DNA from: a virus
Reading direction: 5' to 3' (one strand)
Virus record (IMG/VR): IMGVR_UViG_3300020022_000002
Span: 1-36,167 of that record
Length of the DNA stretch: 36,167 nt
The notes below the pieces were generated by a model. That model worked only from the letters and a program-made list of their open reading frames with translations. It searched no databases and was not told the DNA's origin. Shown here piece by piece: positions 2,272 to 31,556 of this stretch (its first letter is position 1; each line of letters opens with the position of its first letter). Both the position numbers and the translations under genes were made by a program.

Positions 2272-3725
2272 CGACTGCCTATGACCCTCAGGCTCCGGAG
2301 CTTCTGGAGTTGCTGACGCTGTCGGACGATGAGATCGCGCTGGTCAATGTCCTTCGGCAGCAGCTCTTGTCGGAGCGCTGGCACCTGGAGTTGAAGGACG
2401 CCTATTTCAACGGCGAGCAGCTGGTCCGCGACTTGGGCATCAGTATCCCGCCGCAGCTCAAAGGTCTGCATACGGTGATCGGGTGGCCGCGTATCGGGGT
2501 GGAGGCGCTGGAGCAGCGGCTGGATCTGGATGCGTTCCGGTGGGCGGACGGCTCGGACGGGGATGATCTGCTGGCGGTGACGGCGGCGAATGATCTGCTG
2601 GACGAGTCGTCGTTGGCGCACACGGATGCGCTGGTGTACGGGCGTTCGCTGATCACGGTGGGGTCGGGTGACTGCGGGGGCGAGGACTGTCCGCCGCTGG
2701 TGTCGATCGAGTCGCCGTTGGACATGGCGGTGCTGTGGGATGCCAGGTCGCGGACGGTTTTGGCGGCGCTGCGGGAGTGCCGTCCTGATCTGCTGGCGCC
2801 GGAGCTGGTGGACGACCGGATGATCGTGCTGTACCTGCCGGACCAGACGGTGCAGGCGGTGCCGTCGGAGTCAGGTTCCGGCTGGGTGGTTGTGGACCGC
2901 GACCAGCACAACCTTGGGGTTGTGCCGGTGGTTCGGATGAGCAACCGGCAGCGTGCGGGTGACCGTCTGGGGCGCTCGGAGATCACCCGGGATGTCATGT
3001 CGATCACGGATGCGGCGTGCCGCCGGATCATGGGCATCGAGGTCGCGGCGGAGTTTTTCGGAGCACCGCAGCGCTACATCCTGGGTGCGTCGGAGGAGGC
3101 GTTCCAGGACGCGGAGGGCAACGCCAAGTCGGCGTGGGAGACGTACATCGGGCGGATGCTGGCGCTGGAGCGCGACGAGGACGGCAACGTCCCGGAGGTC
3201 GGCTCATTCGCGGCGCACGACCCGACCGGCCAGACGAAGATCATCGACTTGTACGCCCGGATCATGGCGACCCAGCTCGGGGTGCCGCCGCACATGCTGG
3301 GCTACACCTCGGACAACCCGGCCTCCGCCGATGCGATCCGCTCCACCGAGGGCATGCTGATCAAGAAGGCGGAGCGCAGGCAGCGCCGCTTCGGCGCGAA
3401 GTGGGTGCAGGCGATGCGCCTGGCCCTGTGGGTGCAGAACGGTGAGCCGCCAGACAAGCAGCGCGTCATCGAACCGATCTGGCGCAACGCCGCAACGCCG
3501 ACCGTCGCCGCCTCCACCGACGCTGCGACGAAGTTGGTCGTCGCCGGGATCCTGCCGGCGGAGTCGGACATCACGCTGCAGATGGTCGGGCTGACGCAGT
3601 CGCAGATCACGCAGGTCAAGGCGGACCGGCTGCGGCTGGTCGGGCAGCAGGCGCAGACGGACATCCTGGCGCGCCTGGGCGATATTGCGGCGATAGGCAA
3701 GCCTGATGTCGCAGCAGCTCACTGA
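2268..3725 (+). CDS. portal protein, SPP1 Gp6-like
   Basis: A 485-residue portal subunit. It forms the dodecameric ring at the capsid vertex through which DNA enters and to which the connector proteins attach. Recognition rests on the Gp6-like N-terminal pattern (LLTLSDDEIALVNVLRQQL, then YFNGEQLVRDLGISIPPQL), the central DYPGG-less but typical YIGRMLALERDEDG and LGVPPHMLGYTSDNPASADAI segments, and the position directly after TerL. The ATG at 2268 overlaps the TerL stop as ATGA. The 3' end overlaps the MuF gene by 20 nt. Nothing is truncated. Confidence 0.92.
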   Translation: MTTAYDPQAPELLELLTLSDDEIALVNVLRQQLLSERWHLELKDAYFNGEQLVRDLGISIPPQLKGLHTVIGWPRIGVEALEQRLDLDAFRWADGSDGDDLLAVTAANDLLDESSLAHTDALVYGRSLITVGSGDCGGEDCPPLVSIESPLDMAVLWDARSRTVLAALRECRPDLLAPELVDDRMIVLYLPDQTVQAVPSESGSGWVVVDRDQHNLGVVPVVRMSNRQRAGDRLGRSEITRDVMSITDAACRRIMGIEVAAEFFGAPQRYILGASEEAFQDAEGNAKSAWETYIGRMLALERDEDGNVPEVGSFAAHDPTGQTKIIDLYARIMATQLGVPPHMLGYTSDNPASADAIRSTEGMLIKKAERRQRRFGAKWVQAMRLALWVQNGEPPDKQRVIEPIWRNAATPTVAASTDAATKLVVAGILPAESDITLQMVGLTQSQITQVKADRLRLVGQQAQTDILARLGDIAAIGKPDVAAAH

Positions 3726-5607
3726 CGCGTCGGCGGCGGCCGTCCAGCAGCGGGCGGCGCAGGCCGGGCTGACGAAGCTCCTGGCCCGGGATATGCAGTC
3801 GCTGCGGAAGCTGATCGTGCCGGCCCGGATGCAGCAGACGGTGCCGCAGTGGATCCTCGCCGTGCGGGCCCTGGTGGGCCAGTACAGCAAGGCGTCGGGG
3901 TCGCTGGCCGCGAACTACTACGACGCGGAGCGCGCGGCGGCCCGGGTGACCGGCCGGTTCACGGTGCCGCTACCGGATCCGCCGCCCGACGAGCAGGTGG
4001 AGGCGTCGCTGCGGTGGGCCACGAAGGACATCTGGCCGCGGAACCCGGACGATCCGAAGACCACGGCAGTGCAGAAGCTGCCGCTGGAGCAGCGCCTGGA
4101 CGCGGCGGAGGTCAAGTCGGAGGCGGTCGCGCAGAAGCTGGTCGTCGACTCGGGCCGCGGCACGGTCCACAACGCGGTCCAGCGGGATAAGCAGGCGGTG
4201 GGGTATGCCCGCGCCGCAGCCCTGGGGGCTTGTGCCTTCTGCCGCCTCATGGCCACCCGCGGCATGGTGTTCAAGTCGGCCGAATCGGCAGGACGGAACG
4301 CCAATAGCCAGTTCAGCGGCAACGACAGCACCGTGAAGTTCCACGACAACTGCGTCCCGGCCGGGACGCTAGTCGATGGGCCTGCCGCTGAAGTTGGCTA
4401 CCGACGGTACTACGAGGGGGAAATGCTGGTCATTGGCACTGCCGCTGGCCATGAGCTTTCCATCACCCCGAATCACCCGGTACTGACGGACCGAGGCTGG
4501 GTTCCGGCTGGCCTGCTGAGCCCAGGTGATCACGTACTCAGCAGCCTCGATGCACAGGGGAGCTCTCTTCAGGTCCCAGATGAAGAGCATGTGCCATCCC
4601 GCATCGAGGATGTATGGGGTGCGCTGAGCGTGCTCGGTCTTGTAGGCGTGCCAGTTGCCCCCGAGGACTTCCACGGCGACGGGGCCGACGGCGAAGTCCA
4701 TGTTGTACGAGCCGACGGCCTTCTGTGGCGTCACTCGGATGCCTGGGCCCTGGAGGTACTTGCCGAACTGGAACTCTCGCTCGCTTGCGTGCGCGAGAGT
4801 CTGTTCACGCTGCTGGGCTCGTCGGAAGAGCTCGCTGGCCGGGGCCTTGCGACCGCGAACGGCATCGTGCGCGGCCTCTGTGAGTTGGAGTCGCTCCTCC
4901 TCGCTGAGCTGGGCAAGCCGGTTGGTCTGAGCGTCGCTGCGCCCGCGTATTGGCGCCTCGGCTTCGACGAGTACGCGGCGGATCACGCCGCGTGCGATCT
5001 CGAAGCGAGCGGCGAGAGCGAGTTCGCTCTCACCTTGAAGGTAGGCAGCGACGATTTCAGCGGAGGGGAGATCGGCCTTCTGGCTGCGGGCGCTGATCCC
5101 CCGTTTGCTCAGCTCCCTGCACAGCACCGAGGTGCTGACGCCGCATTCGGCGTAGACCTCAGCGCCGTTCTTGCCTGCCAGATAGAGCGCGACCGCCCGG
5201 TCGAGCTTGGCGGTGGTGGTGCGGTAGGGGCGCGTCGGTTCGATCCCCCGGTCCCTTACGGCTCGGTGGATGGTCCCGGCGCTTATGCCGAGTTGGGCCG
5301 AGACCTGGGCGAACGTCTTGCCGGTCGCGTACAGCGCGACCGCATCGTCGAGGTCCGCCGGGTTGATTTTGTTGGCGATGTCTACAACCTCCAGACGGCT
5401 CAAGGCTGGTACCGAGCCGATGGGGTAATTGTATCAAATTGCCACTGCCAATTGATCCCGGTCTTCAAGGGTCAGAAGTTCAACCTGTCCCCGCAGGCCG
5501 CAGAGTGGGCCCGCATCTACGAGGAGTACGCCGCCCCGCACTCCGGTGACCAGCTGAACCGCTTCCGGCAGGCCCTGGATGCGCACGGGCACACGCCCGT
5601 CCTCTGA
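3706..5607 (+). CDS. MuF-like capsid protein precursor containing an intein
   Basis: A 633-residue open frame. Residues 1-215 and 579-633 are a MuF-like minor head protein, typically a few copies beside the portal. Residues 216-578 are an intein. Extein evidence is the CAFC pair (C176, C179) and the motif FHDN-CHCQLIPVFKG, which is complete only after the intein is removed (H213, D, N, C579, H580, C581). This is the conserved Cys/His cluster of actinophage MuF proteins and probably binds metal. The spliced product would be 270 residues. The frame is uninterrupted, so the precursor is made as one chain. It starts 20 nt inside the portal gene. The middle 1 kb also encodes a gene on the opposite strand. 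Confidence 0.9.
   Translation: MSQQLTDASAAAVQQRAAQAGLTKLLARDMQSLRKLIVPARMQQTVPQWILAVRALVGQYSKASGSLAANYYDAERAAARVTGRFTVPLPDPPPDEQVEASLRWATKDIWPRNPDDPKTTAVQKLPLEQRLDAAEVKSEAVAQKLVVDSGRGTVHNAVQRDKQAVGYARAAALGACAFCRLMATRGMVFKSAESAGRNANSQFSGNDSTVKFHDNCVPAGTLVDGPAAEVGYRRYYEGEMLVIGTAAGHELSITPNHPVLTDRGWVPAGLLSPGDHVLSSLDAQGSSLQVPDEEHVPSRIEDVWGALSVLGLVGVPVAPEDFHGDGADGEVHVVRADGLLWRHSDAWALEVLAELELSLACVRESLFTLLGSSEELAGRGLATANGIVRGLCELESLLLAELGKPVGLSVAAPAYWRLGFDEYAADHAACDLEASGESEFALTLKVGSDDFSGGEIGLLAAGADPPFAQLPAQHRGADAAFGVDLSAVLACQIERDRPVELGGGGAVGARRFDPPVPYGSVDGPGAYAELGRDLGERLAGRVQRDRIVEVRRVDFVGDVYNLQTAQGWYRADGVIVSNCHCQLIPVFKGQKFNLSPQAAEWARIYEEYAAPHSGDQLNRFRQALDAHGHTPVL
4369..5403 (-). CDS. putative homing endonuclease nested antisense in the intein
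   Basis: A 344-residue protein read from a TTG at 5403; no ATG or GTG is available between the upstream in-frame stop and this TTG. Three tandem helix-turn-helix-like units lie at about 18-54, 67-103 and 113-152 (each: AVALY..GK..AEV....GVS...I.R.L..RGI). A nuclease core follows, YNMDFAVGPVAVEVLGGNWH, with D236, E245 and W251-H252, then YILDAGWHMLFIWD (D267, D277). This order of acidic residues plus WH matches Vsr/DUF559-type PD-(D/E)XK folds, including the EDxHD homing nucleases. The C-terminal part (QYRVIRGDGKLMASG) overlaps splicing blocks A and B on the other strand. The gene covers 1035 of the intein's 1089 nt, with codons exactly opposite sense codons. DNA-cleaving activity is inferred, not shown. 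Confidence 0.75.
   Translation of the reverse strand: MSRLEVVDIANKINPADLDDAVALYATGKTFAQVSAQLGISAGTIHRAVRDRGIEPTRPYRTTTAKLDRAVALYLAGKNGAEVYAECGVSTSVLCRELSKRGISARSQKADLPSAEIVAAYLQGESELALAARFEIARGVIRRVLVEAEAPIRGRSDAQTNRLAQLSEEERLQLTEAAHDAVRGRKAPASELFRRAQQREQTLAHASEREFQFGKYLQGPGIRVTPQKAVGSYNMDFAVGPVAVEVLGGNWHAYKTEHAQRTPYILDAGWHMLFIWDLKRAPLCIEAAEYVITWAQQASRNPASVRQYRVIRGDGKLMASGSANDQHFPLVVPSVANFSGRPID
5428..5433 (-). promoter_or_regulatory. candidate extended -10 for the antisense nuclease
   Basis: Read on the minus strand, the sequence is TGATACAAT, an extended -10 (TGnTATAAT) with one mismatch. It sits in a rare A/T-rich island at the intein C-terminal junction, about 25 nt before the TTG start of the antisense gene. 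No good -35 is present, which extended -10 promoters do not need. No Shine-Dalgarno precedes the TTG. A GGAGG lies slightly inside the frame, 8 nt before an ATC codon, so the true start is uncertain. Confidence 0.35.
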
Positions 5608-5626
5608 CTTTCCGACCCCTTTTCCC

Positions 5627-5651
5627 GGTCGCCCTGGTGGCGGCCTTTCCC
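5627..5651 (+). terminator. hairpin with T-rich tail between MuF and scaffold genes
   Basis: GGTCGCC (5627-5633) pairs with GGCGGCC (5639-5645) around the loop CTGGT, with one G-T wobble, followed by TTTCCCGTTT. It lies in one of the few real gaps of the late operon (5608-5681). It could terminate partially or set mRNA ends to tune the amount of scaffold and capsid transcript. Confidence 0.45.
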
Positions 5652-5681
5652 GTTTCTGAGCCCCTGGAGGGCCGCTTCGCC

Positions 5682-6338
5682 ATGCCCGAGAACACCGAGA
5701 CCGAGACGCAGCAGACCGAGGCCGAGGAAACCACCACCGAGGTGGAGGAGACGACCGAGGAGCAGGGCGCGGAGGTCACCGAGTCCGCCGACGAGGCCCA
5801 GGAGGCCGAGGAGAAGGCAGAGAAGCCGTTCGACCGTGCACAGGCCGAGGCGAAGATCCGCAAGGCCAACTCGGAGGCCAAGGGCCTCCGGGAACGGCTC
5901 AAGCGGCTCGAACCACTCGCTGCCGAGCTGCAGCGCATCAAGGACGCCGAGAAGTCCGACACGGAGCGCCTGAACGACCAGCTCACGGCCGCGAACGAGC
6001 GCATCACCAAGACCCGCACGGCCCTGGTCAAGTCCCAGGTCCAGGGGCTCGCGGCGGCCACGTTCGCGGACCCGGAGGACGCCGTCGCCGCCCTGGATCT
6101 CGACACGTACATCGACGACGAGGGCGACATCGACGAGGCCGCGATCACCGCGGACCTCGCGGACCTCCTCGAACGAAAGCCGCACTGGGCCCGGCCCCAG
6201 CAGACGCAGCCCCAGGAGGGCGCGCGGCGGCCCGCACCGGATCGCACTCAGGCGTCCGGCGCCAACAGGACCCGAAAGCTCGACCCGGCCGACGAACTGG
6301 CCGGGTTCATCACGTCGCGGCTCACCAAGAGCCGCTGA
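5682..6338 (+). CDS. capsid scaffolding protein
   Basis: A 218-residue, very acidic protein placed directly before the major capsid gene. The first 50 residues are almost all Glu/Thr/Gln/Ala. A helical, coiled-coil-like section follows (about 55-125, EKPFDRAQAEAKIRKAN, LKRLEPLAAELQRIKD), and a Pro/Arg-rich tail leads to FITSRLTKSR. This composition is typical of phage scaffolds (DUF4355-like), which guide shell assembly and are then lost or degraded. The start at ATG 5682 is preceded by CTGGAGG at 5664-5670; the spacing is slightly long. No protease domain is seen. Confidence 0.85.
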   Translation: MPENTETETQQTEAEETTTEVEETTEEQGAEVTESADEAQEAEEKAEKPFDRAQAEAKIRKANSEAKGLRERLKRLEPLAAELQRIKDAEKSDTERLNDQLTAANERITKTRTALVKSQVQGLAAATFADPEDAVAALDLDTYIDDEGDIDEAAITADLADLLERKPHWARPQQTQPQEGARRPAPDRTQASGANRTRKLDPADELAGFITSRLTKSR

Positions 6339-11789: not shown

Positions 11790-14700
11790 ATGCCCATCAG
11801 CGTCGGTTCGGTCTCGGTCGATGTCATCCCGAACACGCAGGGCATCTACCAGCGGCTGAACGCGCCGCTGGTGCAGGCGGGTGACCGTGCCGGGCAGAAC
11901 GCCGGGCAGATCGCCGGTCAGCGCTTCGGCGCGGCGATGGCCGGGGCTGTGCCGAACTCGATCGGCGTGGAGATCGGCCGTCAGATCGGCACCGTCGTGG
12001 GCCAGCAGGTCGCTTCGGCGATCTCACGGTCCATCGTCGACGGGGTGCAGGGCGGAGGGCGCCAGTCGTCCGCCCCTGCCGTGCGTGCGGGTGATGACAC
12101 GGGTGGGGCGTTCGCGCGCGGCCTGAAGGCGCGCCTGGATGTGGCGTTCCGGTCCATGCCGAAGCTCAACGTCAACATTTCTGACACTGGCGTCGACGCC
12201 GAGCTGGCCCGCGTGCGGGCGCAGATGGAGACGCTGTCGAACAAGCGCATCGGCATCGACATCGACGTTGCGACGGCCGACGCGCAGATCGAGGCCATGG
12301 AGGCGGAACTCGTCCGCCTCGGCTCCTACCACCCCAACGTCGCCGTCCGCGCGGACACGGCTGCGGCGCTGGCCCAGTTGGCGGCGGTGCGTGAGGAGCT
12401 CGCGCGCGTGTCCGCGACGCCGGGACAGGTGCGTCTGGAGACCGACGGCTCGTTCGGCGCGAAGCTGCGCGCGCAGGTCGCCGCAGCCCAGGCGTCCCTG
12501 CCGGAGATCAACGTCACCGCGTCGACCGACGACGCCCAGGCCCGCGTGGCTGCGCTGCGGGCGCGGCTGGCGACGCTGTCCAACGCCCGCATCGGCATCG
12601 ACCTGGACGCGGCGACCGCCCTGGAGCGCATCGCCGCGATCCGTGCCGCCCTGACCGAGGTCGCGGGCAGCAACGCATCCATCGACGTGCGCGTCGACGC
12701 GGCGCGCGCGGAGGCCGAACTCGCCGCCGTCAGCGCCGAGGCCGACGCGCTGGGCGCCCAGGACCCGCGCGTCAACGTCCGCGTCGACACCGGCGACGCC
12801 CAGGGCAAACTCTTCGCCCTTGCGGTCGAGCTGGGTATCCTGGCGGCGATCCAGGTCGGGCCGGTCATCGCGGCCGGCCTGGGCGGGATCGTGGCGGCGG
12901 CGGGTGCGGCGGCGATCGGCATCGGCGCTCTGGTGGCGGTGGCGATCCCCGCGATCAGTTCGATCAAGAACGTGCTGCAGTTGCAGACGCAGGCGCAGCA
13001 GCAGTCGACGTCGGCGACCGGTGCGGGCGGGGCGGCGGCGTCGCAGGCGGCGCAGAAGGCGCTGCAGCTCGCCGGCGCGCAGCAGTCGCTGGCGGATGCG
13101 GAGCGCAACGGGGCCCGGCAGATCGCGCAGGCGCAGAAGCAGGTCACGGCTGCCGAGACCGACGTGGCGACCGCGAGGAAGGCCGCGGCGGATGCGGCGA
13201 CGCAGGCCGCGCAGCAGAACGCCCAGGCCGCTCAGCAGGTCGTCCAGGCGGAGAAGGACGTGGCGACGGCCCGGCAGGCCGCGGCAGACGCCGCCACCCA
13301 GGCCGCTCAGCAGAACCAGCAGGCCGCGGCGCAGGTCGCCTCCGCGCAACGGGACGTGGTGCGCGCCGAGCAGCAGGTGGGGTCCTCCGAGCGGGACCTG
13401 GCGGCGGCGCAGCGCACGGCGCAGCAGGCCCAGAAGGACCTCACCCAGGCGCGGGCGGATGCGACGCGGGCGCTGGAGGACGAGAACAACTCGCTGGCGG
13501 ACGCGCAGCTCTCGCAGCGGCAGGCCGTCCTGGACCTGCAGGACGCGACCGCGACGCTGGCCGCGGACAAGAAGGCCGGGTCGAAGGTCTCCGCGGAGCA
13601 GCTGGCGAAGGACCAGCTGGGCTACGACCAGGCCGCGCAGCATGTGAAGGAGCAGGGCGAGCAGGTCGACCGGCTCGCCGCCGACACGGCCGCGGCGAAC
13701 GCCGCCGGGGTCGACGGCAGCAAGACGGTGCTGTCCGCGCAGCAGTCTCTCGCCGATGCGCAGCAGGACGTCGTCGACAAGGCGACGGCGCTGGCCAATG
13801 CGCAGCAGGACCTGCTGGACAAGGAGTTGGCGGTCGCCCGGGCGGAGCAGGCGCAGGCGCAGCAGCGTGTCAAGGGTGCGCGGCAGGTCGCGGCGGCGCA
13901 GCAGGCGGTGCAGGACAAGATCACGGCGGTGGCTGCGGCTGAGCTGGCGCAGGCGCAGCAGCGCGTCAAGGGCGCCGAGCAGGTCGCGGCCGCCCAGCAG
14001 GGCATCGCCGCCGCGCAGCAGAAGGTCGCCGATGCGCAGGGCAATGTGACGCAGGCGCAGGAGCAGTCCGCGTCGGCGATCACGGCGGCTCAGCGCGGTA
14101 TCCAGTCCGCGAACCTGTCCACGGCCTCCTCGGCTGCGACGGCGGAGACCGCGCAGCAGAAGTACCAGGCGGCGCTGGACAAGCTGTCGCCGTCCGCGCG
14201 GACGTTGCTGACCTCGTTCGTGAACCTGAAGACGGGGTTCTTGGCGTGGTCGACATCGCTTCAGCCTGCCGTGCTGCCGTTGTTCTCCCGGGCGCTGGAC
14301 GGCCTGGGCGGGTCGCTGACGAAGTTCTCGCCGCTGGTGGTGGGGGCGGCCTCCGGAGTGGCGGCCCTGGAGGACAAGCTGGGGCGGGAGCTGAAGACCC
14401 CGTTCTGGAAGGGCTTCCTCGCGGACCTGACGACGGCCGTGCCGATCGCACTGGTCGGCCTGGGTGTCACGTTCGGGAACATCTTCAAGGGCCTGGCGGG
14501 GTTCGTCGACGCATTCCTGCCGCATATGACCGGCGTCTCCGCCGAGATGGAGAAGATCACCGGGAGGTTCGCCAAGTTCGGCTCCGGCCTGAAGGTCAAC
14601 CCGGCGTTCACGGCCTTCCTGGACTACGTCAAACAGAGCGGTCCGGGCCTGTCCGCCCTGTTCGCACAGCTGTTCACGACCCTGGGGCAGGTGTCGCAGG

Positions 14701-16907
14701 CCCTGGCGCCGATCGCCGGCCCGGTCCTGCGGATCGTCACGAGTCTGGCGCAGTTCGTCGGCTGGCTGGCGAAGGTCAACCCCGGCCTACTGCAGGGGAT
14801 CTACCTGGCCGCGCTGGCCTTCAAGGCCATGCAGCTCAGCATGGTCCTGGTCAACGCGGGGATCTGGGCGTACAACGCGGCCGTGGCGCTGGCGATGGTC
14901 TTCACGGACGGGTGGGCTGTCGCGATCCAGGCCACCGGCATCGTCCCCATCATCGAGGCGATCATCGTGGTGATCGCGCTGCTGGTCATCGGCGTGATCT
15001 ACGCCTACAACCACTTCACGTGGTTCCACGACATCGTCAGCGGCGCCATCCACGGCGTCGCCACTGTCGCCCTGTGGCTGTGGAACTCGGTGCTGAAGCC
15101 GAGCTTCGACGGCATCGTCATCGCGATCTCGGCGGTGGCGACGGCGGCGGTGTGGCTGTGGCAGAACGTGCTGGTCCCGGCGTTCAACGGGATCATGCTG
15201 GTCGCGAAGGTGCTCCTCGCGGTCATCACGGTGCTCGTCGTCGCGCCGATCCTGATCGCTTTCCACCTGCTGAGCGCCGTCGTGATGTCGATGTGGAAGA
15301 CGACGTTCGCCCCGGCGTTCGCCGCGATCGGCACCATCGCGACGTGGCTGTGGAAGAACGCGATCTCCCCCGCTTTCAACGGCATCGCGAACCTGGCGAA
15401 CTGGCTCTACAACAACGGCATCAAGCCCGGGTTCACGCTCATCCAGGTGGTCTTCCGGGCGGCGGCAACGGTCGGGTCGTGGCTGTACAACAACGCCTTG
15501 GCGCCCGCGTTCCGGGGCATCGCGACGGTCGCGGGCTGGCTCTACAACACCGGCATCAAGCCTGCGTTCAACGCGATCGCGACGGTCGCCAACTGGCTGT
15601 GGAAGAACGGCCTGAGCCCGGCGTTCAACGCGATCAAGACCGGGGTCTCCCTGGTCGGAACCGCCTTCCAGTCCGCCGTGACCTTCATCGGCCGGGTCTG
15701 GGGCGGCGTGGAGGACATCGCGAAGAAGCCCATCAACTTTGTGATCAACTCCGTGTATACGCACGGCATCAAGGCCGTGTGGGACGAGGTCGCGGGCTTC
15801 GTCGGCCTGGGCAAGCTGCCCAACGCCCCCAAGCTCCTGGAAGCCGGCGGCACCGTTGGCCCCGGCTGGGGCCCGGCCGCACCGATGAAGGTCAACCGGC
15901 CCACGGCAATCGTCGGGGAAGGCAACCCGAATCACCCCGAATATGTGATTCCCACCGACCCGAAGTACCGCGCCCGGGCCCGGGCTCTGCACCAGGCCGC
16001 GGGCAGCCAGCTGATGGCGGGCGGCGGCATCATCGGGTCGGCGGAGAGCCTGCTGGGCAGCGCGGCCAAGGGCCTCAAGTCCGTGGGCACCGCGGCGTGG
16101 AACGGCATCACCGACATGGGCGACATCTTCCTGCACCCCACCGCGATCTGGTCGAAGATCTCCGCACCGATCCGCGCACTGATCAACCAGGTCGGCAACT
16201 TCCCCTTCGACAAGCTCATCGGCCAGGTCCCGGTGAAGATGCTCAACGGCCTCGGCACCAAGATCGCCGACTTCGTCACCGGCGGCGGCGGCGGAACCAG
16301 CGCCAACGGCGGCATCGGCGGCGCCCTGCTGTGGGCGAAGTCGCAGGCCGGAAAGCCCTACCAGTGGGGCGGGGTCGGCAACCCGTCGTGGGACTGCTCC
16401 GGTTTCATGGGCGGCATCGAGTCCGTCATGCTGCACCAGAACCCGGACCGGCGCCTGTTCACGACCCAGGCGTTCCAGGGCTCCACCGCCCCGGCCGGGT
16501 GGACGCAGAACGCCGCCTCGGCGTTCCGCATCGGCGTGACCAACGCCGGGGTCGGCCACATGGCGGGCACCATCGGCGGCACCAACGTGGAGTCGCAGGG
16601 CACGTTCGGGGTGCTCGCGGGCCCGCGCGCCCGCGGCTGGAGCGACCCGCTGTTCACCGAGCACTACGGCTACACCGGCAAGTTCGACTCCGGGGGCTAC
16701 CTGCCCACCGGCCTGTCCACGGTCTACAACGGCACCGGCAAGCCCGAGCCGGTGCTCACCAACGAGCAGTGGGCTGCCATCGGCGGCGGCGGCAAGGGCG
16801 ACGGCCGTATGCCGCTGACCGTCAACTACATGGCGCCGACGCCGGAGAACCCGGAGAAGGCCGCCATGGAGATCAGCCGGCGCGTCAACAGGGCGGTGAG
16901 CATCTGA
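11790..16907 (+). CDS. tape measure protein with C-terminal NlpC/P60-like domain
   Basis: A 1705-residue protein that sets tail length. At roughly 0.15 nm per residue, the tail would be about 250 nm. Parts in order: N-terminal repeated units of about 50 residues (115-345, each with a LSNARIGIDLD-type strand); a hydrophobic stretch (about 350-390); a very Gln/Ala-rich coiled coil with internal duplications (about 396-791); hydrophobic segments (about 1010-1090); about eight Trp repeats, WLWKN.ISPAFNGI.T.A (about 1094-1285); and an NlpC/P60-like peptidase domain (about 1507-1631) with C1536 in WDCSGF and H1590 in GVGHMAG. The last domain probably cuts cell-wall peptide during DNA entry. It is the longest gene here. 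Confidence 0.93.
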   Translation: MPISVGSVSVDVIPNTQGIYQRLNAPLVQAGDRAGQNAGQIAGQRFGAAMAGAVPNSIGVEIGRQIGTVVGQQVASAISRSIVDGVQGGGRQSSAPAVRAGDDTGGAFARGLKARLDVAFRSMPKLNVNISDTGVDAELARVRAQMETLSNKRIGIDIDVATADAQIEAMEAELVRLGSYHPNVAVRADTAAALAQLAAVREELARVSATPGQVRLETDGSFGAKLRAQVAAAQASLPEINVTASTDDAQARVAALRARLATLSNARIGIDLDAATALERIAAIRAALTEVAGSNASIDVRVDAARAEAELAAVSAEADALGAQDPRVNVRVDTGDAQGKLFALAVELGILAAIQVGPVIAAGLGGIVAAAGAAAIGIGALVAVAIPAISSIKNVLQLQTQAQQQSTSATGAGGAAASQAAQKALQLAGAQQSLADAERNGARQIAQAQKQVTAAETDVATARKAAADAATQAAQQNAQAAQQVVQAEKDVATARQAAADAATQAAQQNQQAAAQVASAQRDVVRAEQQVGSSERDLAAAQRTAQQAQKDLTQARADATRALEDENNSLADAQLSQRQAVLDLQDATATLAADKKAGSKVSAEQLAKDQLGYDQAAQHVKEQGEQVDRLAADTAAANAAGVDGSKTVLSAQQSLADAQQDVVDKATALANAQQDLLDKELAVARAEQAQAQQRVKGARQVAAAQQAVQDKITAVAAAELAQAQQRVKGAEQVAAAQQGIAAAQQKVADAQGNVTQAQEQSASAITAAQRGIQSANLSTASSAATAETAQQKYQAALDKLSPSARTLLTSFVNLKTGFLAWSTSLQPAVLPLFSRALDGLGGSLTKFSPLVVGAASGVAALEDKLGRELKTPFWKGFLADLTTAVPIALVGLGVTFGNIFKGLAGFVDAFLPHMTGVSAEMEKITGRFAKFGSGLKVNPAFTAFLDYVKQSGPGLSALFAQLFTTLGQVSQALAPIAGPVLRIVTSLAQFVGWLAKVNPGLLQGIYLAALAFKAMQLSMVLVNAGIWAYNAAVALAMVFTDGWAVAIQATGIVPIIEAIIVVIALLVIGVIYAYNHFTWFHDIVSGAIHGVATVALWLWNSVLKPSFDGIVIAISAVATAAVWLWQNVLVPAFNGIMLVAKVLLAVITVLVVAPILIAFHLLSAVVMSMWKTTFAPAFAAIGTIATWLWKNAISPAFNGIANLANWLYNNGIKPGFTLIQVVFRAAATVGSWLYNNALAPAFRGIATVAGWLYNTGIKPAFNAIATVANWLWKNGLSPAFNAIKTGVSLVGTAFQSAVTFIGRVWGGVEDIAKKPINFVINSVYTHGIKAVWDEVAGFVGLGKLPNAPKLLEAGGTVGPGWGPAAPMKVNRPTAIVGEGNPNHPEYVIPTDPKYRARARALHQAAGSQLMAGGGIIGSAESLLGSAAKGLKSVGTAAWNGITDMGDIFLHPTAIWSKISAPIRALINQVGNFPFDKLIGQVPVKMLNGLGTKIADFVTGGGGGTSANGGIGGALLWAKSQAGKPYQWGGVGNPSWDCSGFMGGIESVMLHQNPDRRLFTTQAFQGSTAPAGWTQNAASAFRIGVTNAGVGHMAGTIGGTNVESQGTFGVLAGPRARGWSDPLFTEHYGYTGKFDSGGYLPTGLSTVYNGTGKPEPVLTNEQWAAIGGGGKGDGRMPLTVNYMAPTPENPEKAAMEISRRVNRAVSI

Positions 16908-25537: not shown

Positions 25538-25753
25538 TCACGCCGCCTGCGCTTCCTCGTCCTCGCCTTCCCTTCCGCGCGCACCACCCAGCCGGACCGC
25601 CACATACTCGGCCACCAGCTCGTGATACCGGGCCATCCGCGCAGCCCGCTCCTCCACCGTGTCGCCCGTGGTGCGCATCAGGGCCGCTATCTCACGGTTG
25701 ATCGCAGCCAGGACGCGGGAGTTCGGGCCAGGAGTGGCTGGAGTGTGGTGCAC
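25538..25753 (-). CDS. small hypothetical protein
   Basis: A 71-residue protein: N-terminus HHTPATPGPNSRVLAAINREIAALMRTTGDTV, then EERAARMARYHELVAEYVAVRLGG, with an acidic tail. It is mainly helical. The reading frame has normal G/C-ending codons and conserved-looking hydrophobic spacing, so it is probably real. The GTG start at 25753 has no Shine-Dalgarno; the message may be leaderless. It is the first of the leftward pair with the HAD gene, 30 nt from that gene's stop. Function not recognised. Confidence 0.5.
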   Translation of the reverse strand: MHHTPATPGPNSRVLAAINREIAALMRTTGDTVEERAARMARYHELVAEYVAVRLGGARGREGEDEEAQAA

Positions 25754-25783
25754 ACGATCATTGTCCCAGGTGGCGCGGACACC

Positions 25784-26500
25784 TCAGGACGTCTGTACGC
25801 CCAGCCCGTCGCGGATCATCCCCACCAGCCGGTCCGTGCCGGTCAGGTCGGCCAGCACGGCCTCCGCGCCGGCCTCCCGCAGCTCGGCCATGCTGCTCTT
25901 GCCCGTCGCCACCCCGAGAGCCACAGCCCCAGCCTGGTGGGCGGCCTCAATGTCGGAGGGGGTGTCGCCGACGACCAGGGCCTCGCCGATGCCGTAGATC
26001 AGGCCGTCCGCCGTAGTGGCGCGCCCGTAGGCGGTCCGGACGAGGTCGGCGCGCACGTCGGAGTCCTCCGCGTAGGCGCCGATACCGAAGTCGATGCGCC
26101 GGTCCAGGCCAAACACCTGAAGCTTGATCTCCGCGACGCGGCGGACGTTGCCGGACACCACGGTCTGCCGCACCCCGTCCAGCTTCGCCATCGCATCCAG
26201 GACGCTGGCCGCACCGGGCAGGGCGTGCCCGCGCTCGCGGAGTTCACCGGCGCGCCGCACATAGCCCTCAGCCAGAGCGTCGGCGTAGTCCTCGAAGTGG
26301 TACTCGTCGGGGTCCAGGCCGTGCAGGCGGCACGACTCGGCGAGGATCGCCCGCTCCGTGCGCCCCGACACGTTCGGGTGATGCTCCTGACGATGCCCGG
26401 TGACCTTCAGGAACGCCTCCTCGGAGATGGAGCCACCCACCCCGCCCGACGCGATCAGGGTGTGGTCCACGTCCCACAGCACCAGCCGGTACCCCGCCAT
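25784..26500 (-). CDS. HAD-family hydrolase (phosphatase-like)
   Basis: A 238-residue protein. HAD motif I is LWDVDHTLI (nucleophile Asp in DxDxT form), the cap domain follows, motif II is VVSGN, and motif IV is VVGDTPSDIEAA (GDxxxD). This is the phosphoglycolate-phosphatase-like arrangement that hydrolyses small phosphate esters; the substrate is unknown. The ATG at 26500 is chosen because GGGAGGAG lies just before it; a longer frame to 26572 has no site. Such HAD genes are common on Streptomyces chromosomes and rare among phage core genes, so this is likely cargo. It runs divergently from the XRE-TPR regulator at 26624. Confidence 0.85.
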   Translation of the reverse strand: MAGYRLVLWDVDHTLIASGGVGGSISEEAFLKVTGHRQEHHPNVSGRTERAILAESCRLHGLDPDEYHFEDYADALAEGYVRRAGELRERGHALPGAASVLDAMAKLDGVRQTVVSGNVRRVAEIKLQVFGLDRRIDFGIGAYAEDSDVRADLVRTAYGRATTADGLIYGIGEALVVGDTPSDIEAAHQAGAVALGVATGKSSMAELREAGAEAVLADLTGTDRLVGMIRDGLGVQTS

Positions 26501-26574
26501 AGCCACTCCTCCCACCGCACGGACCCTCACCCTGTCACACGAATGCGCAGAAGGAGGACACTGCGTCACCAACC

Positions 26575-26597
26575 GCCCTACCCTGGCGACATAGGGC
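26575..26597 (+). promoter_or_regulatory. dyad in the divergent HAD / XRE-TPR gap
   Basis: GCCCTA (26575-26580) and TAGGGC (26592-26597) form a 6-bp dyad with an 11-nt spacer. TACCCT within it fits a -10 element. It is 27 nt before the GTG of the XRE-TPR gene, so it could be its operator or promoter. It shares CCCTA...GCGAC..TAGGG with the dyad at 29949-29966. Confidence 0.35.
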
Positions 26598-26623
26598 AGC
26601 CAGGACGGGGAACGGAGGCAGCC

Positions 26624-27817
26624 GTGGACCTACCCATCGGCGCCCGGGTGCGCCACTACCGCGGCACCCGCCAGCAGGCTGTCGTCGCCGGGCTGGCCGG
26701 GGTCTCGGCGGAGTACTACTCGCAGATCGAGCGTGGCCTGCGGATCCCCACCATCGCCGTGCTGCACCGCATCGCCCAGGAGCTCGGAGTGCCCGTCGCC
26801 GCCCTGCTCGCCGAAGGCGCCGCCGCCGCCACTACCGCCCCGGACACGGCCGCACCGTCCATCGCACAGGCCCTGATGGGCTACGGACCGCCGCGGTCCA
26901 CAGAACCGGCAGAACCGGGCGTACTGCGGGAGCGCGTCGAGGCAGCGTGGCGGTCCTGGCAGTCCTCCCCGACCCGCTTCTCGGACGCCGCCGACATCCT
27001 GCCGGACCTGATCGCCGACACCGAGCACGCGGTCCGGGCCCGGCGTGCCGGTGAGGACGGCGGGCCGCGGCGCGAGACGCTGCGGGTGTCCGCAGACCTC
27101 TACTTCCTCCTGCGCTCCTACCTGCGCCGCGCCGGGCGCACGGACCTCTCGATGATGGCCGCAGACCGGGCCATGCGCGCCGCCGAGGACGCGGATGACC
27201 CGCTGCGGATCGCCGCCGCCCAGTGGAACCTCGGCCACGTCCTGCTCGCGGCCGCGGACCCCGACGCGGCGGAGCACGTCGCCATGCTGGGCGTGGACCA
27301 GTTGAAGCCGCGGGTGAAGGCCGGGGATGAGGACTGTGCGGCGATGGCAGGCGCACTCCAGCTGGTGTCGGTGATCGCGTCATCGCGGCGCAAGGAGTGG
27401 TGGATCGCCCGGGACCGGCTGCAGAAAGTCGCAGCTCCGGCGGCGAAGCGCGCCGGGGAGGGCAACATCATGTGGACCGTGTTCGGGCCCACCAACGTTG
27501 CCCTGCACGCGGTCAGCATCGAAATGGAGGCCGGGGAAGCGGGCGAGGCGCTGCACGACGCCGACCAGATCGACACCTCCCAGTTGCCGTCGCTGGAGCG
27601 CACATTCACGTTCCTGCTTGAAGTCGCGCGCTGCCACGACCTGCGGCGCGAGGACCCGGCCGTGCTGCTGCACCTGCTGCAGGCCGAGACCCTGGCCCCG
27701 GAAGACCTCGCGCGGGCGCAGCCGGCCCGGGACATGGTCGTCGGGCTGATGCGCCGGGCGCGGGCCATGCAGGCCCGGCAGGCGGAGCAGCTGGCCGGGC
27801 GCATGGGCATGCTCTGA
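26624..27817 (+). CDS. XRE-family regulator with TPR-like C-terminus
   Basis: A 397-residue protein. The N-terminal helix-turn-helix (5-62: ARVRHYRGTRQQAVVAGLAGVSAEYYSQIERGLRIPTIAVLHRIAQELGV) is the Streptomyces XRE pattern. The rest is helical, TPR-like (AAQWNLGHVLLAAADPDAAEHVA, LERTFTFLLEVARCHDLRREDPAVLLHLLQAETLAPE), a sensor part typical of peptide- or ligand-responsive regulators. The GTG at 26624 follows ACGGAGG. This architecture is host-like rather than phage-like and may control the adjacent cargo genes. A strong inverted repeat follows its stop. Confidence 0.85.
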   Translation: MDLPIGARVRHYRGTRQQAVVAGLAGVSAEYYSQIERGLRIPTIAVLHRIAQELGVPVAALLAEGAAAATTAPDTAAPSIAQALMGYGPPRSTEPAEPGVLRERVEAAWRSWQSSPTRFSDAADILPDLIADTEHAVRARRAGEDGGPRRETLRVSADLYFLLRSYLRRAGRTDLSMMAADRAMRAAEDADDPLRIAAAQWNLGHVLLAAADPDAAEHVAMLGVDQLKPRVKAGDEDCAAMAGALQLVSVIASSRRKEWWIARDRLQKVAAPAAKRAGEGNIMWTVFGPTNVALHAVSIEMEAGEAGEALHDADQIDTSQLPSLERTFTFLLEVARCHDLRREDPAVLLHLLQAETLAPEDLARAQPARDMVVGLMRRARAMQARQAEQLAGRMGML

Positions 27818-29908: not shown

Positions 29909-30023
29909 GGGCCTCCGAGCAGCAGTGATTACAGACGCCTACTGGTACCCCTAAGCGACCATAGGGAGCCACAAAGTAACCAAAGCACTCATGTGGGGAC
30001 GCCACAGTCGCTACCGTCTCCCC
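29909..30023 (+). other. gap upstream of integrase: repeats, candidate attP
   Basis: This 115-bp gap holds CAGTG-A-TTACA-N6-TACTG (29923-29944), a near copy of the element at 29556-29576, and the dyad CCCTAAGCG-N4-TAGGG (29949-29966). Large serine integrases usually have attP next to their gene. The other side of this integrase is closed by a convergent gene, so attP most likely lies here. The crossover dinucleotide cannot be named without the bacterial site. Confidence 0.4.
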
Positions 30024-31556
30024 ATGAGCACCCTGGCTGACACCACCCCCGGCACCCAGGAACAGCCCCTACGCGCAGGCATCTACGGACGCGCCTCCCA
30101 GGACCGCTCGAAGCGCGGACGATCCGTCAGAGACCAGATCGCCGACTGCCGACGCGAATGCAGCACCCGCGGCTGGACCGTCGTCGACGAGTACATCGAC
30201 CTCGACCGCTCAGCATCCCGCCACGCCCGCAAAGTCCGCGAGGACTACACCCGCCTCGTCGCAGACATCCAGGCCGGGAAACTCGACATGCTCGTCTCCT
30301 GGGAGTCCTCCCGCGTCAGCCGCGACCTCGACGTGTACGTCAAACTCCGCAACCTGTGCACCGACACCGGAGTCCTGTGGTGCTACAACGGCACCATCTA
30401 CGACATGCGCAAAGGCGCCGACCGCACCACCACCGCCATCATGGCGATGATGGCCGAGGCCGAAGCCGACAGCATGCAGGAACGCAGCGCCCGAACCACC
30501 CGGCTGAGCGCCGGCCGCGGCACCCCGCACGGCAGGATCCCGTTCGGCTACGCCCGCAGATACGACCCCGACGACGGCCACCTCCTCGGCCAGGTCCCGC
30601 ACCCCGTGCACGCCGACGTGGTCCTGGACCTGTTCCAGCGCGCCGCGGACCGGGAGACGGTCAGATCCCTCACTGCCACGCTGTGCCAGCACGTCCCCAG
30701 GGCCAGTACGCGCGGGCTCACCTACCTGCTGCAGAACCGCACCTACATCGGACTGCGCTCGCACTTCGGCCAGCACGTGAAGGCCACATGGGAGCCGATC
30801 GTCCCCGAGGCCCTGTTCTGGCGAGTCCAGGAGATCATCGTCAACCCGGAGCGCCGCACCTCCCGCGACACCCGCGCCCTGCACCTGCTGTCCGGGATCG
30901 CCATGTGCGGCGTCTGCAAGGAGAACACTCCCCCCGATCAGCCGCTGCCCGGCCTGCGCCTGGTCCGCCCCGGTGCCCAGCCTCGCCGCGTGTCGCGGTA
31001 CTGCTGCAAGCCCGGCAGCCATGTCGCTACGGGGGCGGAACGCCTGGAGGCCTACGTCGAAGAGCACCTGATGGTGTGGTTCAAGTCCCCCGAAGCTGCG
31101 ACTGCGTTCGCGTCCAGGGACGACGGCGCCCTGGAGGAGGCGAGGGGGCGTGCGGCGCGGATCCGTGTGCAGTTGCAGGAAGCGCGGGCCATGGCGGCCG
31201 AATTCGACGACACCACCGGCATGCCCCTGCTGAGTATCGCGTCACTGGCGGACATGGAGCGCCGCCTGGCGCCGATGGCCGCACGGGCGGAGGAGGACTT
31301 GCGCCGCCTGGCTGCTGTCGGAGACCCGGTCCTGGACCAGCTGCTGGCGGATCCGGAGCGCGCCGAGGCAGTGTGGGAGCGGCTAGGCATGGAAAAGCGT
31401 CGCCATGCCGTGCGGAATCTGGTGAACGTGACCTTGCACAAGGCTGCGGCGCAGGGCATTCGCAGCTTGGACGAGTCGCGGGTGACGCTGACGTTCGTGA
31501 GCCAGCCGGGCTTCACGTCGCGGCCCACGATCCGCCGGCCGCCGGTGGAGGGCTAG
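30024..31556 (+). CDS. int: large serine integrase
   Basis: A 510-residue site-specific recombinase. The catalytic Ser25 is in AGIYGRASQDR, and the resolvase domain covers about 17-160 (with LVSWESSRVSRDLDVYV and the MMAEAEADSMQERSARTT helix). A recombinase domain follows (about 165-285, GTPHGRIPFGYARRYD, GLTYLLQNRTYIGL), then a zinc ribbon (C295, C298, C327, C328), a coiled coil (about 372-405), and a C-terminal DNA-binding tail. It integrates the phage into the host chromosome without host factors. The ATG at 30024 is preferred over one at 29991; neither has a clear ribosome site. The stop shares the tetranucleotide CTAG with the stop of the opposing gene. Confidence 0.93.
   Translation: MSTLADTTPGTQEQPLRAGIYGRASQDRSKRGRSVRDQIADCRRECSTRGWTVVDEYIDLDRSASRHARKVREDYTRLVADIQAGKLDMLVSWESSRVSRDLDVYVKLRNLCTDTGVLWCYNGTIYDMRKGADRTTTAIMAMMAEAEADSMQERSARTTRLSAGRGTPHGRIPFGYARRYDPDDGHLLGQVPHPVHADVVLDLFQRAADRETVRSLTATLCQHVPRASTRGLTYLLQNRTYIGLRSHFGQHVKATWEPIVPEALFWRVQEIIVNPERRTSRDTRALHLLSGIAMCGVCKENTPPDQPLPGLRLVRPGAQPRRVSRYCCKPGSHVATGAERLEAYVEEHLMVWFKSPEAATAFASRDDGALEEARGRAARIRVQLQEARAMAAEFDDTTGMPLLSIASLADMERRLAPMAARAEEDLRRLAAVGDPVLDQLLADPERAEAVWERLGMEKRRHAVRNLVNVTLHKAAAQGIRSLDESRVTLTFVSQPGFTSRPTIRRPPVEG

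Follow-up and report, generated by a model that had tools for sequence, protein, structure and literature searches.

What is a long open reading frame doing on the opposite strand of a phage intein, in register with the very codons that specify the splicing domain? To our knowledge, the nuclease of an intein is an in-frame domain of the intein itself. The locus considered here lies in IMG/VR record IMGVR_UViG_3300020022_000002, a 36-kb viral record with a GC content of about 66% and many long antisense ORFs, and the whole stretch that was analysed (36,167 nt) is referred to as the window. The initial annotation, made from the letters of this DNA, had proposed an intein whose homing-endonuclease-like gene is encoded antisense through its own splicing domain. 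That proposal is supported: homologous loci, codon-position tests, start and promoter signals, both predicted structures, and a transfer footprint agree, and we therefore regard the element as very probably a mobile intein with its homing endonuclease gene on the other strand instead of in frame.

Two predicted products of one head-gene segment

The intein interrupts a head protein gene (Table 1) whose neighbours encode the large terminase, portal, scaffold, and major head protein. Within the phage collection, the closest intein-less MuF relatives of the window are found in Streptomyces phages, and these homologues run contiguously across the window's intein junction. Elsewhere in the window, a 731-aa protein (25622-27817, +) has a transcriptional-regulator C-terminal part, and an integrase (29991-31556, +) matches a serine-recombinase-like DNA invertase; because an integrase and a regulator are both present, the phage is probably temperate. 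The C-terminal half of a 1705-aa tape-measure-like protein (11790-16907, +) also matches an endolysin-labelled PHROG.

Table 1 Features of the intein locus, in window coordinates
Feature	Position	Strand	Basis
VG15/MuF-like head protein precursor with intein, 633 aa	3706-5607	+	VG15, E 6.7e-45; phrog_193 head maturation, E 7e-40
N-extein	3706-4350	+	part of the 633-aa head precursor
C-extein	5440-5607	+	part of the 633-aa head precursor
Intein, 363 codons, C1 to terminal N, +1 residue Cys	4351-5439	+	blocks, Intein_splicing match, alignment
Block A, CVPAGT	4351-4368	+	sequence, alignment
Block B, TPNHPVL; antisense is QYRVIRG of the nuclease	4465-4485	+	sequence, alignments
Block F, GDVYNLQ; antisense is Shine-Dalgarno and start position of the nuclease gene	5374-5394	+	
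Block G, end GVIVSN, before Cys +1	5425-5439	+	sequence, alignment
Antisense ORF, 344 aa from TTG, multi-HTH Vsr/EDxHD-like nuclease	4369-5403	-	families and model
Three helix-turn-helix units, residues 15-51, 64-100, 114-147	4963-5361	-	AlphaFold model
Vsr-like nuclease core, residues 208-300	4504-4782	-	conserved residues, structure comparison
Catalytic-type residue D236	4698-4696	-	alignments
Catalytic-type residue E245	4671-4669	-	alignments
Family nuclease start-codon position (ATC in the window, ATG or GTG in most relatives)	5377-5379	-	
Antisense Shine-Dalgarno GGAGGT inside block F	5387-5392	-	sequence; family bias
Antisense extended -10-like TGATACAAT inside block G	5428-5436	-	window scored positive
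Putative homing footprint, intein and flanks	4270-5538	.	near-identical to a relative with divergent backbone

On the sense strand, the splicing blocks first reported at both ends of the insert (CVPAGT, TPNHPVL, GDVYNLQ, and VIVSN followed by C) are present in the sequence. The window's copy matches Intein_splicing at E 5.8e-4, below the curated cut-off, and the + product matches Intein_splicing at E 0.0027 and TIGR01445 at E 2.8e-4; among the relatives, Intein_splicing was matched in 43 of 47. In an alignment of 47 diverse inteins, C1, the block B His, and the terminal Asn are invariant and the +1 Cys is nearly so, which argues against a backwards nuclease insert that does not splice, with MuF working around an internal loop and the intein blocks surviving as relics. 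Non-splicing inserts do exist, as ShiLan shows (PMC11855218), and the penultimate intein residue is often Ser, not His, which would suit relics of this kind; however, the splicing segments are under sense-strand purifying selection and the predicted ends fold as a HINT domain, and we consider such an insert improbable. The model of the sense intein is confident near both ends (about residues 1-68 and 327-363), whereas confidence is low across most of 120-312; its top structural matches are RecA and RadA inteins, and the sense core is predicted to be disordered. By the testable parts of the definition the element in the window is an intein, and we infer that it splices itself.

Another reading of the insert would be an intron of group I or II that carries its homing gene in antisense, an arrangement on record for nuclear group I introns (PMC9548176), yet here the host gene has an uninterrupted frame with intein blocks in it. 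Rfam over 4001-5800 gave no intron family at E up to 1, its two sub-threshold matches to eukaryotic/viral families being chance; we reject an RNA intron on these grounds and attach next to no probability to it.

On the antisense strand of the intein, the 344-aa frame is open as described, covering 1035 of the 1089 bp (95%), and the exact codon register of the sense and antisense ORFs was found as stated in the initial annotation. Its product matches HTH_23 (E 2.4e-8) and HTH_58 (E 1.3e-6) and, through a restriction-endonuclease-like domain, MTES_1575 (E 5.8e-4) and DUF559 (E 0.03), the Vsr-like domain match of the window's nuclease falling below the Pfam cut-off; MTES_1575 was matched in 36 of 50 relatives, and HTH units dominate the family matches. 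The AlphaFold model of the antisense protein (50-member alignment, mean pLDDT 86) contains linking helices, an alpha-beta nuclease core, and the three HTH units that had been read from the sequence, a number that differs among relatives, most having one or two. Residues 1-8 and 320-344 are disordered in this model, the latter lying antisense to the block A region up to block B. When the core was compared by VIA-align, the leading matches were 3hrl (Z 9.2), Vsr 1cw0 (9.1), I-Bth0305I 3r3p (8.8), and 1vsr (8.7), with the next rows at Z 7.3 and below; Z values near 9 are moderate, and they agree with the sequence families in suggesting a Vsr/I-Bth0305I-like fold. Of the Vsr/DUF559-like core first described, the predicted fold and the catalytic-type residues stood, D236 and E245 being invariant in alignments of 18 and of 50 members and E210 nearly invariant, whereas the W251-H252 pair is only a majority feature of the nuclease alignments. 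It had been allowed that structure prediction might reveal no nuclease fold; the fold predicted is a Vsr/I-Bth0305I-like one.

A family of loci with an open opposite frame

At least 155 loci encoding this nuclease were collected, from about 115 lineages with GC contents of 34-72%. A tblastn search with the antisense protein matched 131 phage records, and profile-guided scans extended the set to 155, with one viral scan represented by 80 of 129 relatives and a genome-contig scan contributing four loci, so that prophages are thinly sampled. All phage loci taken from the tblastn records, with the exception of L016, match antisense and in register to a gene with intein blocks, and the host gene is nearly always a MuF-type head gene. 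In 152 of the 155 loci the opposite frame in register is free of stops (0 in 39,774 nuclease-matching codons), where the other two frames have 1,333 and 2,970 over the same codons; the initial annotation had required the + strand middle to stay stop-free. The three exceptions (L016, L133, and L150) are not in inteins, no intein being visible around the nuclease match in L133 and L150. Every intein-borne copy of the nuclease that we found is antisense, and none is the in-frame endonuclease of a canonical homing intein.

The N-exteins of 72 lineages matched Phage_Mu_F in 52, Phage_min_cap2 in eight, VG15 in four, and dCMP deaminase in one, and by this last match the element has entered a non-capsid gene at least once. 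The locus concerned (L009, Virus Rctr197k, KX853510.1, 616-1968) is annotated as a 'putative head morphogenesis protein', a label probably taken from its intein. More than one site is occupied within MuF genes, as seen in the same MuF gene of the closely related phages Snoke (L001) and KMB36 (L019). In existing annotations the intein is named in Snoke and, rarely, an unnamed opposite-strand ORF is given (Salmonella phage PK1); an antisense nuclease would explain why some genes annotated as 'intein-containing head protein' show no recognisable nuclease. L016, in Acinetobacter phage P1068 (2845-3738), is a free-standing nuclease gene beside an intact, intein-less MuF gene, with which it is convergent with a 6-bp overlap, and its opposite strand is full of stops; phages IME285 and BUCT629 have the same overlap annotation. 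Such a free-standing gene is a possible precursor state.

Spurious antisense ORFs are common in GC-rich DNA, and the antisense frame could in principle be a chance shadow of a sense-coding intein core: the window is itself GC-rich with many long antisense ORFs, and 39-44% of control genes from the same loci are open in register above 60% GC. Those controls, however, are never open in register below 50% GC; below 45% GC, none of 24 is open, and every 256 codons contain a mean of 13.4 antisense stops in register. The intein cores, by contrast, are open over the full GC range, down to 34%. The antisense strand also carries HTH and nuclease families and a confident fold where the sense core is predicted to be disordered, and in the core it is the antisense wobble position that varies in all 19 pairs compared (below). 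Low-GC loci, control genes, and the codon-position test together rule out a chance ORF, and we give this reading practically no weight.

In this register, the first position of each sense codon is paired with the third (wobble) position of an antisense codon. Between blocks B and F, sense position 1 is the most variable in every one of 19 independent pairs of relatives (1350, 557, and 934 differences at sense positions 1, 2, and 3). Position 3 is instead the most variable in 19 of 19 pairs both for N-exteins (1374/1136/2224 at positions 1/2/3) and for N-terminal splicing segments (230/127/385), and it is highest in 16 of 17 untied pairs for C-terminal splicing segments (102/51/159) and C-exteins (160/129/376). 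A Fisher test of core against N-extein codon positions gave p of about 1e-55. Because codon-position variation flips between regions, the core evolves as a nuclease and the ends as an intein. Direct comparison reads the same way, the sense motif DFHGDG..GEVEVV being the shadow of nuclease YNxDFAVG-VAVEV and the nuclease C-terminal QYRVIRG being the shadow of block B TPNHPVLT. From the residue ranges of the models, the DNA common to both folded products comes to about 4450-4554 and 5329-5379 of the window, and the two products thus seem to share little DNA, as their confident ranges barely overlap. The initial annotation had both proteins constrained codon by codon; this is only partly right, since constraint on the core is chiefly that of a nuclease and at the ends chiefly that of an intein, and a strict double constraint over the whole length was overstated. 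Selection compared on each strand across homologues, which had been proposed as a check, shows the antisense frame to be the more strongly constrained in the core. With the flip falling at the edges of the splicing segments, the locus is an unusually clean natural case of strand-partitioned selection in an overlapping gene.

Expression signals, transfer, and decay

Read on the opposite strand, the His codon of block F (CAT/CAC) becomes ATG/GTG, and the Asn/Asp-Leu-Gln codons that follow it can become GGAGGT. Codon choice in these residues is strongly biased: of 73 dereplicated inteins, 65 use CTC for the block F Leu, where host codon usage predicts 14.1 (z 16), and CAT encodes the His in 67 of 72 (expectation 31.5). 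An antisense Shine-Dalgarno is present in 63 of the 73, whereas synonymous simulations gave 13.2 +/- 3.1. The start test covered lineages with a His start at the usual place; at least 15 of 115 have none there. A sigma-70-type promoter (-35/-10 or extended -10) was found in blocks F-G of 41 of 78 inteins versus 8.8 +/- 2.5 expected, with exact TATAAT in 32 (6.2 expected) and exact TTGACA in 21 (3.4 expected), and was not recognisable in blocks F-G of about half of the 78. Six loci (L033, L053, L059, L061, L066, and L082) have a consensus-like TTGACA-N17-TATAAT antisense inside block F-G codons. These codon biases are hard to explain otherwise, which favours expression of the antisense gene. 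In the window the Shine-Dalgarno is perfect but the family start position reads ATC, as it does in L007, a near twin of the window's copy, even though this pair bears signs of a recent transfer; the TTG at 5403 is an unproven start of the window's nuclease ORF.

Break repair with co-conversion is expected to leave an element and short flanks near-identical. Compared with a 57-kb relative whose alignable backbone is 73-87% identical, the 1089-bp intein of the window has seven differences (99.4% identical) and is bordered by identical flanks of 81 bp on the left and 99 bp on the right, a footprint that fits homing, in which cleavage would have started the repair. Six of the seven differences are synonymous for the nuclease and six alter the sense protein, so that, small as these numbers are, the nuclease seems to have been under selection around the transfer despite its ATC. 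A similar disparity is seen between Snoke and Salmonella phage inteins, the N-exteins differing by 31-35% in DNA and the inteins by about 4%.

In the homing cycle, nucleases decay after fixation. L134, L135, and L057 have a premature in-frame stop in the nuclease and an intact sense intein, and look like decayed nucleases in intact inteins. Homologues with a conserved sense strand and antisense stops had been named as evidence against the antisense gene; the few copies of this kind we read as decay. Their survival is as expected for a selfish gene, and with the homing footprint, presence/absence at a conserved site, and the invariant D236 and E245 it speaks against a nuclease-like protein with a non-homing role, such as a regulator using its HTH units; the prominence of those units among the family matches lends that role some appeal, and we hold it to be very unlikely. 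Distances among splicing segments, nucleases, and exteins, when compared by a Mantel analysis, do not tell a single origin from multiple ones.

Proposed mechanism and relation to known systems

Under the antisense-endonuclease reading, the host strand would be read as a single precursor comprising the MuF N-extein, the N-terminal splicing segment, the middle, the C-terminal splicing segment, and the C-extein. The middle, of about 200-270 residues, would only mirror the antisense nuclease gene and probably form a disordered linker, and the HINT domain would excise itself to leave a working head protein. The opposite strand would be transcribed independently from a promoter in block F-G DNA, and the nuclease translated from the Shine-Dalgarno and start embedded in block F. 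The resulting multi-HTH Vsr/EDxHD-type endonuclease would then cut intein-less MuF alleles, and the break would be repaired by copying in the entire element together with short co-conversion tracts. Free-standing relatives located next to MuF genes make it plausible that the arrangement arose when a free-standing nuclease gene was inserted backwards into a mini-intein.

More broadly, these loci likely represent a widespread class of phage intein in which splicing and homing are encoded on opposite strands, blocks F-G double as promoter, ribosome-binding site, and start, the middle is a disordered shadow, and free-standing MuF-side relatives are possible precursors; the class would extend over phages that infect actinobacteria, proteobacteria, and other hosts and to at least one non-capsid gene (dCMP deaminase). 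A single DNA stretch would thereby serve two proteins as well as regulatory signals, and a separate antisense gene would let the nuclease be expressed, fold, and decay independently of the essential host protein. An insertion in reverse orientation, with TTA, CTA, and TCA avoided so that the frame stays open, would offer a testable route for the invasion of inteins by homing genes, and the family would supply a new group of Vsr-like homing enzymes whose target is probably the conserved MuF site.

We found no antisense endonuclease in an intein in the open-access literature. The free-standing relative in P1068 belongs to the same nuclease family and adjoins a MuF gene, but it is not intein-borne and its opposite strand is not open. 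ShiLan, an out-of-frame, same-strand HNH insert in phage methylases that does not splice, likewise hides a homing nuclease in a phage insert that is open in the host frame and yields a poorly folded host-frame product (PMC11855218); it differs in its strand, its HNH nuclease, its lack of a splicing domain, and its lack of a detectable ribosome-binding site (PMC11855218), whereas the window has an opposite-strand, Vsr-like nuclease within a splicing domain. The antisense homing genes known from nuclear group I introns, Didymium I-DsqI and others, also lie opposite the host gene strand with a proposed promoter of their own, but they involve RNA splicing, a His-Cys box nuclease, and eukaryotic rDNA, and their host strand need not stay open, so that there is no double protein coding (PMC9548176).

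With I-Bth0305I and the Vsr endonuclease the window's nuclease shares its predicted catalytic-core fold and, as is known for the EDxHD family, the joining of the nuclease to separate DNA-binding modules (PMC3943268). Unlike I-Bth0305I, which resides in a group I intron of a Bacillus phage, the nuclease here is intein-borne and antisense and carries N-terminal strings of one to three HTH units. Canonical homing inteins of the PI-SceI and PI-PfuI type, with in-frame LAGLIDADG or HNH nucleases, likewise have HINT blocks A, B, F, and G, a nuclease gene between blocks B and F, and homing-like transfer to a conserved protein site, but here the nuclease, Vsr-like in its predicted fold, has a separate gene on the opposite strand with start and promoter signals belonging to that gene, and the middle, read in frame, is predicted to be a disordered shadow. 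Thus, we regard the element as a new architectural variant of homing inteins, whose function is strongly indicated by the patterns of selection and transfer.
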